From an uncultured Bryobacteraceae bacterium (lineage in GTDB: Bacteria; Acidobacteriota; Terriglobia; Bryobacterales; Bryobacteraceae): 33,991 bases of DNA. A program made the position numbers and the translations under genes. Location: the NCBI GenBank assembly GCA_955652915.1, contig CATPCJ010000170.1, positions 1 to 33,991 on the forward strand, written 5' to 3'. Positions 3,729-24,104 of the stretch are shown here, one piece after another; the stretch's first letter is position 1, and each line of letters starts with the position of its first letter. A model generated the notes under the pieces. It worked only from the letters and a program-made list of their open reading frames with translations. It was not told where the DNA came from and made no database searches.

Positions 3729-4079
3729 ATGACAGTCTGGATGTTGGCGATCCCGGCGGCGTTGGTTATAGTGGGCGTCTATATTCTGTTTCGCATTCGA
3801 AAACATCCGAAGGATCGTGAGCAGCGGCGGCGCCTGGCAGTCAATCTTCACGGCCGCTTGGGCGACGCGATGATCACCGAAGTGCACGACGGCTTGGTTT
3901 TCTATGAGTACTCCGTGCGCGGCGTGCTTTACGCGGCATCGCAGGATGTTTCGAAATTGCGTGAACACATTCCCATCGACCCGGATCGGCTGATCGGACC
4001 AGTCGGCTTGAAATACTCGACTCAAAATCCCGCCAACTCAATCATCATCTGCGAACACTGGTCCGGCTTACGCGTCTGA
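3729..4079 (+). CDS. Small membrane-anchored hypothetical protein
   Basis: Unrecognised protein of 116 residues, last gene of the hslVU operon and 5 nt after the preceding stop. Residues 3-22 form one hydrophobic transmembrane segment followed by a strongly basic stretch (RIRKHPKDREQRRR), which predicts an N-out/C-in or signal-anchor topology with a soluble C-terminal domain of about 80 residues. The soluble part has alternating hydrophobic strands (AMITEVHDGLVFYEYSVRG, ending SIIICEHWSGLRV), suggesting a small beta-rich fold. Coding-like composition and tight spacing support a real gene. Function is unknown. Confidence 0.7.
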   Translation: MTVWMLAIPAALVIVGVYILFRIRKHPKDREQRRRLAVNLHGRLGDAMITEVHDGLVFYEYSVRGVLYAASQDVSKLREHIPIDPDRLIGPVGLKYSTQNPANSIIICEHWSGLRV

Positions 4080-4085
4080 AAAAAT

Positions 4086-4174
4086 AGGGTGACAGGCTCC
4101 GCCCTCCCAAGCCGCCCGAACATCGAAGCATGCGCATACGCTTTACGCGCGTGGACGGTGGTGCCTGTCACCCT
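4086..4174. repeat. Dispersed palindromic element, copy A
   Basis: An 89-bp element bounded by perfect 12-bp inverted arms, AGGGTGACAGGC at 4086-4097 and GCCTGTCACCCT at 4163-4174, followed by a T-run (TGTTTTTTT). The interior carries CCCAAGCCGCC and GCGCGTGGAC. A second copy in the opposite orientation lies at 32843-32933; when reverse-complemented it shares both ends and both internal blocks. Located just after the hslVU operon, the stem and T-run may also terminate transcription. The remaining sequence to 4283 has no recognisable gene. Confidence 0.85.
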
Positions 4175-4283
4175 GTTTTTTTGCCTGTGTGGATCTTAAA
4201 GCGATTTTTTCACAGCTTCGTAAGCGAGCGTTCCGAAATGCCGGGAACTTTCCCCCGGCCCAGGTGTCTATACTGCCGTGGCG

Positions 4284-14439: not shown

Positions 14440-14543
14440 ACGTGGCGCGGACACTCGTGTCTGCGGGATCGAGACTCGTCTCGATCCTCTTGCCCGAGCA
14501 TCGAGATAAGTCTCGATGCAGCAGACTGAAGTCCGCGCCACGT
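14440..14543. repeat. Mirror-image two-hairpin element between convergent genes
   Basis: Outer 13-bp perfect inverted arms ACGTGGCGCGGAC (14440-14452) and GTCCGCGCCACGT (14531-14543) enclose two perfect hairpins: GGATCGAGAC/GTCTCGATCC (14466-14487) and GCATCGAGA/TCTCGATGC (14498-14519). The right half reverse-complemented closely matches the left half, so the element is an inverted pair of one unit. It fills the 133 bp between the transpeptidase and HAD stops and is flanked by an A-run and a TTATTAAAAA stretch, so it could terminate both transcripts. Confidence 0.9.
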
Positions 14544-21393: not shown

Positions 21394-21439
21394 GGGTGGG
21401 CAATCCTGCCTGCAGCCGGCTTTCAGTTGGACATTCTTA

Positions 21440-21549
21440 TGTGGGGCAGGATGGCATCCTGCGGCGGATTGGTAATCGGCCTGGTGTTGGATCCGGAATT
21501 AATTACGGGCCGATTGCCAATCGGCCGCAGGTTACCAACCTGCCCCACA
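21440..21549. repeat. Second mirror-image two-hairpin element
   Basis: Two 42-bp arms, 21440-21481 and 21508-21549, are inverted copies matching at 37 of 42 positions. Each arm is itself two short palindromes: GCAGGAT-ggc-ATCCTGC (21446-21462) and a GGATTGG-TAATCGG hairpin on the left, GCCGATT-gcc-AATCGGC (21509-21525) and GCAGGTT-acc-AACCTGC (21527-21543) on the right. The layout is that of the element at 14440-14543, but the sequence differs. It begins 46 bp after the SBBP stop and its right end directly touches the hicA remnant. Confidence 0.9.
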
Positions 21550-21656
21550 ATTACTATGACGGGAACGGTTATTGTCGCTTTTCCAAACGCTTTTGCATTA
21601 TCCGATGACTGCCTCGCTGGCGGATCCGAGCCTGAAAGGACTCGGAGTTTACCCAA
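21550..21656 (-). pseudogene. hicA: Remnant of a HicA-type toxin gene
   Basis: From a TTG at 21656 the frame reads MGKLRVLSG, which I recognise as the usual start of HicA partners of this HicB subfamily. The next recognisable segment, RQRGSHRIMQKRLEK (the HicA dsRNA-binding-type core with GSH), is in another frame, and TITVPV follows in the first frame again. About a dozen residues between the start and the core appear deleted, and everything after TITVPV is missing: the repeat element starts at once. No functional toxin can be made. Confidence 0.7.
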
Positions 21657-21859
21657 CCCGGCACCTCAACCTGAGTCACGAAAACATCGTTGTGACAGCG
21701 CCGGGCTACTTCGGAATCGGAGGCCGTTTCGAAGAACAGCGTGAGCGCTTCAATGAGGTTGGCCCGCGCTTCTTCAATCGACGCACCCTGGCCGGCAATG
21801 TCGAGCTCCGGGCACAACGCCACAAAACCGCCGTCCTCGCGTTCGATAATCGCGGTCAA
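21649..21859 (-). pseudogene. hicB: HicB-family antitoxin gene, frameshifted at its end
   Basis: The translation TAIIEREDGGFVALCPELDI, then ASIEEARANLIEALTLFFETA and VFVTQVEV, is a HicB antitoxin domain of about 68 residues. The C-terminus reads V-E-V-P-G-W and runs on into hicA sequence to a stop at 21569. Removing one base from the CCC at 21657-21659 would give V-E-V-P-V-G followed by the TAA at 21649-21651, the normal HicB ending. The start is a TTG that corresponds to an internal Leu of relatives (L-T-A-I-I-E-R-E), so the 5' codons also seem lost at the junction with the upstream gene. The folded domain might still be expressed. Confidence 0.75.
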
Positions 21860-21863
21860 TAAC

Positions 21864-24026: not shown

Positions 24027-24095
24027 TGGCGCTCGGGGCTTCCAGCCGGCTAGACCCGCTGGAAAGCGGGTCGGCAGCCTGGATAGGCTGCGCCA
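24027..24095. repeat. Three-hairpin palindromic element
   Basis: Outer arms TGGCGC (24027-24032) and GCGCCA (24090-24095) enclose three hairpins: GGCT-tcc-AGCC (24037-24047), GACCCGCT-ggaa-AGCGGGTC (24053-24072) and GCAGCCT-ggat-AGGCTGC (24074-24091 region). It lies 9 bp past the stop of the sigma54 activator gene and may end that transcript. The design resembles the elements at 14440 and 21440. The gap from 23892 to 24104 contains no gene. Confidence 0.85.
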
Positions 24096-24104
24096 CGAAG
24101 AGGA

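Follow-up and report, generated by a model that had tools for sequence, protein, structure and literature searches.

Two-hairpin REPINs and their cognate RAYT genes in an uncultured Bryobacteraceae bacterium

REPINs, RAYTs, the co-residence of several families and the co-diversification of REPs with RAYTs are already published (PMC3116915, PMC3686654, PMC6006769, PMC8266576), and the REPIN/RAYT kind has been defined (PMC3116915, PMC3733652, PMC6006769). As REPs diversify with their RAYTs, the layout is conserved and the stems change (PMC3686654, PMC8266576). The elements described here share with the REPINs and cognate RAYTs of PMC3116915 the inverted REP doublet with a spacer, the formation of hairpins, the extragenic position, the high copy number, and the co-residence of several families, each beside its own RAYT. 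They differ in the arm, which has one palindrome there and two tandem hairpins here. Full-text searches pairing RAYT terms with Acidobacteria gave just two papers of relevance (PMC3733652, PMC6006769), which describe further relatives. In the part of PMC3733652 that deals with TIRtrons, including those of Koribacter, acidobacterial RAYT-like genes are flanked by long inverted repeats, as they are here, and a figure legend calls some of these TIRs double palindromic; the same part sets TIRs apart from GTAG repeats and gives some of them the motif GGGGWSAS, whereas the present arms begin with GTRG (a comparison by description only). The Class 3 TnpA-Y1 of Solibacter (PMC6006769) likewise belong to Acidobacteriota, with several hundred structured repeats per genome, but have the leader CnGA at the repeat foot and a YV..EQ motif, in place of GTRG and YIE(M/N)NP. 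The present results extend REPINs to uncultured Bryobacterales.

The window, i.e. the whole stretch of 33,991 nucleotides that was analyzed, belongs to a 7.09-Mb draft genome of 506 contigs. The element at 21441-21548 is a pair of inverted arms. Taken as 42-nt arms (21440-21481 and 21508-21549, one flanking base included), they are complementary at 37 of 42 positions (88%) and separated by 26 nt. Each arm consists of the leader GTGGG, hairpin 1, and hairpin 2. In the left arm (+ strand), the leader (21441-21445) combines the GTRG tetranucleotide with G as the clade-typical fifth base. It is followed by hairpin 1 (21446-21462, GCAGGATGGCATCCTGC, with the stem halves GCAGGAT and ATCCTGC around GGC) and hairpin 2 (21463-21481, GGCGGATTGGTAATCGGCC), which has one mismatch here and a matching CCGCC in most copies. 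The right arm, on the - strand, mirrors this order with hairpin 2 at 21508-21526, hairpin 1 at 21527-21543, and the leader at 21544-21548 (CCCAC on the + strand). The spacer between the arms (21482-21507) is conserved within the genome and differs in congeners. As folded single-stranded DNA, the element greatly exceeds shuffled sequences in stability, with z values of -9.8 (+ strand) and -9.2 (- strand). Two inverted, hairpin-forming REP units around a spacer are the organization of a REPIN. A small ORF on the - strand (21602-21862) adjoins the element and is kept in three congeners amid unrelated neighborhoods; it looks HicB-like by eye, and a Pfam search returned no match for it.

A second REPIN (family B) lies at 14442-14541, with the leader GTGGC and hairpins at 14447-14464, 14466-14487, 14499-14518, and 14521-14536. 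Its layout is that of the element at 21441-21548 (family A), its stems are unrelated, and its folding as single-stranded DNA gives a z of -8.2 against shuffles. The first-pass annotation had described at 21440-21549 two inverted arms with 37 of 42 matching positions and two palindromes each, laid out as in the 14440 element with unrelated hairpin sequences; arm alignment, the hairpin search and the arm anatomy of both elements bear this out. A third family is represented in the window by a single arm on the - strand (24052-24096), composed of GTGGC, GCAGCCTATCCAGGCTGC, and GACCCGCTTTCCAGCGGGTC. A descriptor (a GTRGNGC leader and two adjacent hairpins) was run on the window and on 203 kb from 20 arbitrarily chosen contigs of the same genome. 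It found 10 arms and 3 inverted pairs in the 203 kb and 4 arms in the window, altogether 14 arms in 237 kb, while ten dinucleotide shuffles of the full 237 kb gave 0 or 1 arm each (mean 0.3) and no pairs. With 14 arms against ~0.3 in shuffles, the element class is therefore real, and the structure-based search proposed in the earlier reading yields more than two elements, with far lower counts in shuffled sequence. A different inverted repeat at 4079-4181 of the window (AAAAAATAGGGTGACAGGC...GCCTGTCACCCTGTTTTTT, with 29-nt arms) resembles the GAGGTGACAGTCACCTC arms around the Y1_Tnp gene in L033.

Both families are dispersed and present in many copies, as REPINs are. In the case of family A there are at least 40 copies (the number scored) with 93-100% identity, and in the case of family B at least 40 at 83% identity or more. 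The hairpin-1 pattern of family A has 251 matches per strand versus 0 for the reversed pattern; as the pattern is nearly palindromic, this corresponds to 251 to 502 places. Family A copies are mostly extragenic (2 of 30 in long ORFs, versus 82% of other points), and for family B, with 14 of 30 in long ORFs, the avoidance is less clear. All three window elements sit 3' of genes, and their hairpins would also form in RNA, as expected if they were gene-end modules working as structured RNAs or transcription terminators, retained for gene regulation and linked to RAYTs only secondarily; roles of REPs in terminating transcription and in mRNA stability have been proposed (PMC3733652). We hold this reading to be very improbable, as no Rfam family scored above its gathering threshold for the element, the copies are ~95% identical in unrelated contexts and different between congeners, which fits a recent spread, and the arms track the RAYT phylogeny described below. 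The elements may nevertheless have a side effect in the host. A plain transcription terminator was rejected, since it leaves the RAYT link unexplained, as was a CRISPR-like repeat, for which no regular array was seen.

The alignments of family B have sharp ends at GTGG...CCAC. In family A the core often lies within a longer shared repeat, so part of its copying may have involved a larger unit. Remnants of this outer repeat flank the window element at 21427-21439 (TTGGACATTCTTA, common to many family A copies) and at 21550-21558 (ATTACTATG), and a degenerate outer REP-like arm on the + strand (21396-21426, GTGGGCAATCCTGCCTGCAGCCGGCTTTCAG) was recognized by comparison with the copies L020 and L022. 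An outer repeat without family A inside was sought as an insertion site, and all outer copies readable with their flanks contain family A. The REP dimers of GTAG-15 in A. variabilis (PMC3733652) are likewise nested, as a rule, in an outer palindrome never found alone, with other sequences and in another phylum. Family A is often part of a larger mosaic (21396-21439 and 21550-21558; L003-L031, L068-L097) of the form CTGGAGTTTGGACATTCTTA, family A, and a 78-nt linker ending in CTCCAG. The outer bounds of this mosaic are exchangeable REP-like hairpins (GACAGGCCTCCTGGCCTGTC, CACAGGCAAGAATGCCTGTG, or the type found at 24052-24096), both ends often being of the same type, an arrangement suggesting that REPINs belonging to different RAYTs are nested in one another.

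Six Y1_Tnp genes were found in the genome. The gene of RAYT-A (L034, G000:C369:4148-4729) encodes 194 residues (P0001) with the motifs NHVH...YIEMNP; a family A arm overlaps its 3' end, and a complete element of the family lies beside its start. RAYT-B (L035) has 195 residues (P0002) and the motifs NHVH...YIENNP, and its gene has family B arms on both sides, one of which overlaps the 3' end and encodes the last residues. A cognate HUH/Y1 gene flanked by the same REP, as expected of REPINs, is thus present for families A and B. A third Y1_Tnp gene (L036) lies between arms of one hairpin each, CACAGGCATTCTTGCCTGTG. Both RAYT-A and RAYT-B score above the Pfam cut-off for Y1_Tnp, and REP_Tyr_transpos is the best NCBIfam model for both, with scores of 78.5 and 74.5, just under the curated cut-off of 80. 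RAYT-A matches the solved E. coli TnpA-REP (PDB 4ER8, 1.4e-5). Of the NH[IFV]H, WQ, and YIxNNP motifs, RAYT-B has all three by eye, and RAYT-A has YIEMNP instead of the last. Likened by motifs alone, the two proteins share with TnpA-REP subclass 2.4, or RAYT group 4 (PMC6006769), the GT[AG]G foot, the NHVH and WQ motifs and a REP overlapping the transposase gene; YIxNNP is matched by RAYT-B but not by RAYT-A, and the overlap lies between HuH and Y there and at the 3' end of the gene here.

The flanking genes also bear on the possibility that the element is a MITE, i.e. an ordinary DDE insertion sequence reduced by deletion, the arms being its terminal inverted repeats. The element is short, present in high copy and has inverted ends, and a longer repeat, itself bounded by outer inverted ends (CTGGAGTTTGGACATTCT / AGAATGTCCAAACTCCAG), encloses some of the copies. 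However, the genes between the matching arms are of the HUH/Y1 type and not DDE genes, and the arm hairpins show compensatory changes (below), which plain inverted repeats do not need; on these grounds a DDE MITE was rejected. No constant target duplication is apparent beside the copies by inspection of alignments in the same genome and in congeners. The chance that a MITE is the correct description is in our estimation minimal, slightly smaller still than that of the terminator module.

RAYT homologues were collected from 120 relatives and named genomes, mostly Bryobacterales and Solibacter (Acidobacteriota), giving 111 distinct loci. An inward-facing GTRG double-hairpin arm is found at 63 of the 111 loci (Bryobacterales and beyond), and on both sides at 31. 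In the control intervals, drawn at random from the genome of the window, an arm was found in 9 of 400 and arms on both sides in 0 of 400 (Fisher p 6e-40 for 63/111 versus 9/400). The arms thus also have the GTAG or GTGG that REPINs carry at the base of the palindrome. In a tree of 108 RAYTs, clade A comprises 51 rows (support 96) and clade B 14 (support 96 for 13 of them). The fifth base of the leader follows these clades: all arms scored in clade A are GTRGG (G in 41, C in 0), and all those scored in clade B are GTRGC (C in 11, G in 0). The left and right arms of one locus have a median identity of 88%, compared with 59% for arms of different loci. The more alike two RAYTs are, the more alike their arms tend to be (Mantel rho 0.39, and 0.43 for the G-leader set; 0 of 2000 permutations). 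As in described REPINs, RAYT and REP thus diversify together, as seen in both the fifth base and the Mantel correlation. Double hairpins occur in 48 of the 52 clade A and B RAYTs having any GTRG arm. In the sister clade and other phyla (Chloroflexota, Planctomycetota, Bacteroidota, and others), with two clade A fragments set aside, 26 of 34 have a single hairpin (Fisher p 4e-11 for double versus single by clade). The arm with two tandem hairpins is a derived character of a single RAYT clade.

The stems keep their pairing while their letters change. Among the family A copies of the genome, which were found by sequence similarity alone, the covariation score is 0.145 (0.046 shuffled), and stem pairs are changed on both sides in 28 cells versus 12.7 expected. 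Across the RAYT loci the score is 0.559 (0.160 shuffled), hairpin 1 is 100% paired, and changes on both sides occur in four of its six pairs; these arms were picked by a hairpin search, and the independent evidence is their detection rate relative to the controls and the family A genome copies. The arm structure is under selection. That a class of elements keeps its layout while its sequence changes, as had been supposed from the window, is upheld by these paired stem changes together with the descriptor hits and the RAYT-locus arms.

Ten family A sites of one congener (G002) were compared with two others (G003 and G001). Six of the ten are occupied in G003, and four lack the element between matching flanks (in G003 or G001), with junctions that are not clean, showing short unrelated filler or deletions at some. 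The four missing sites are consistent with mobility, gain and loss being inseparable in this comparison. An empty site was also sought at the window locus, where the upstream neighborhood is not conserved in congeners.

Taken together, we are highly confident that the element is a REPIN, a non-autonomous unit of two inverted REP arms of which RAYT-A most likely recognizes, cuts, and rejoins the GTGG and hairpins. The families are REPINs because RAYT genes carry such arms, whose stems differ by RAYT lineage and stay paired by compensatory changes. Presumably they are mobilized in trans by the cognate RAYT, as judged from sequence. The arm would present GTGG as a guide tetranucleotide at the hairpin foot, with a second hairpin behind the first in this lineage. 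RAYT-A, an HUH/Y1 single-strand transposase, most likely reads GTGG and the folded hairpins on single-stranded DNA, and would cut and rejoin at the arms, spreading copies into intergenic DNA. That RAYT-A reads GTGG and the folded arm on a single strand is expected from what is known of TnpA-REP biochemistry (PMC8266576) and of IS200/IS605 transposition; its cleavage and copying activity, like any part played by the second hairpin, we infer. We propose that the need of the transposase to read a folded strand preserves the layout, and that the letters of the stems drift, pair by pair, in step with the transposase; related RAYTs would then have related arms and distant RAYTs unrelated ones.

The notion of an undescribed non-coding system does not hold, as each of the two families has a cognate RAYT gene with its own arms on the flanks, which is the REPIN/RAYT kind. 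What appears to be new are the tandem two-hairpin arms as a clade trait and the fifth leader base following the RAYT clade without exception, neither of which was found in the open-access literature searched, of limited coverage. With about equal weight for and against, the two hairpins may have become a joint recognition site in one clade of acidobacterial RAYTs, read together and with the fifth leader base serving as a key to the clade; this would give dozens of naturally separate transposase/hairpin pairs, several of them co-resident per genome. The idea of layout without sequence thereby becomes a concrete, testable set of transposase/DNA-hairpin pairs. Since leader base and stems change with the RAYT clade, these genomes are natural experiments on the reading of folded DNA by a single-strand transposase, and also on how such pairs are kept apart in one cell.

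The genome contains further double-hairpin families, of the GCAGCCTATCCAGGCTGC type (24052-24096) and of the GGACCCCCTGGTCC type (L163:6041; L167:5364). No RAYT was detected for either in the draft genome, and RAYTs of relatives carry such arms (L109, L118); the two families are possibly orphans, or their RAYT genes were lost in the draft assembly. In two other genomes (G062 and G063), both incomplete assemblies, family A arms are present and RAYT-A was not detected. In other genera (G061, G040, G043, and others), the 42-nt arm of family A is conserved at 98-100% identity and the RAYT-A homologues at only ~50-68%, which suggests strong constraint or a recent horizontal spread of the arms. At L162:1074, a chimeric arm joins hairpin 1 of family A to a hairpin of the type of the L036 RAYT, suggesting recombination between REP families.
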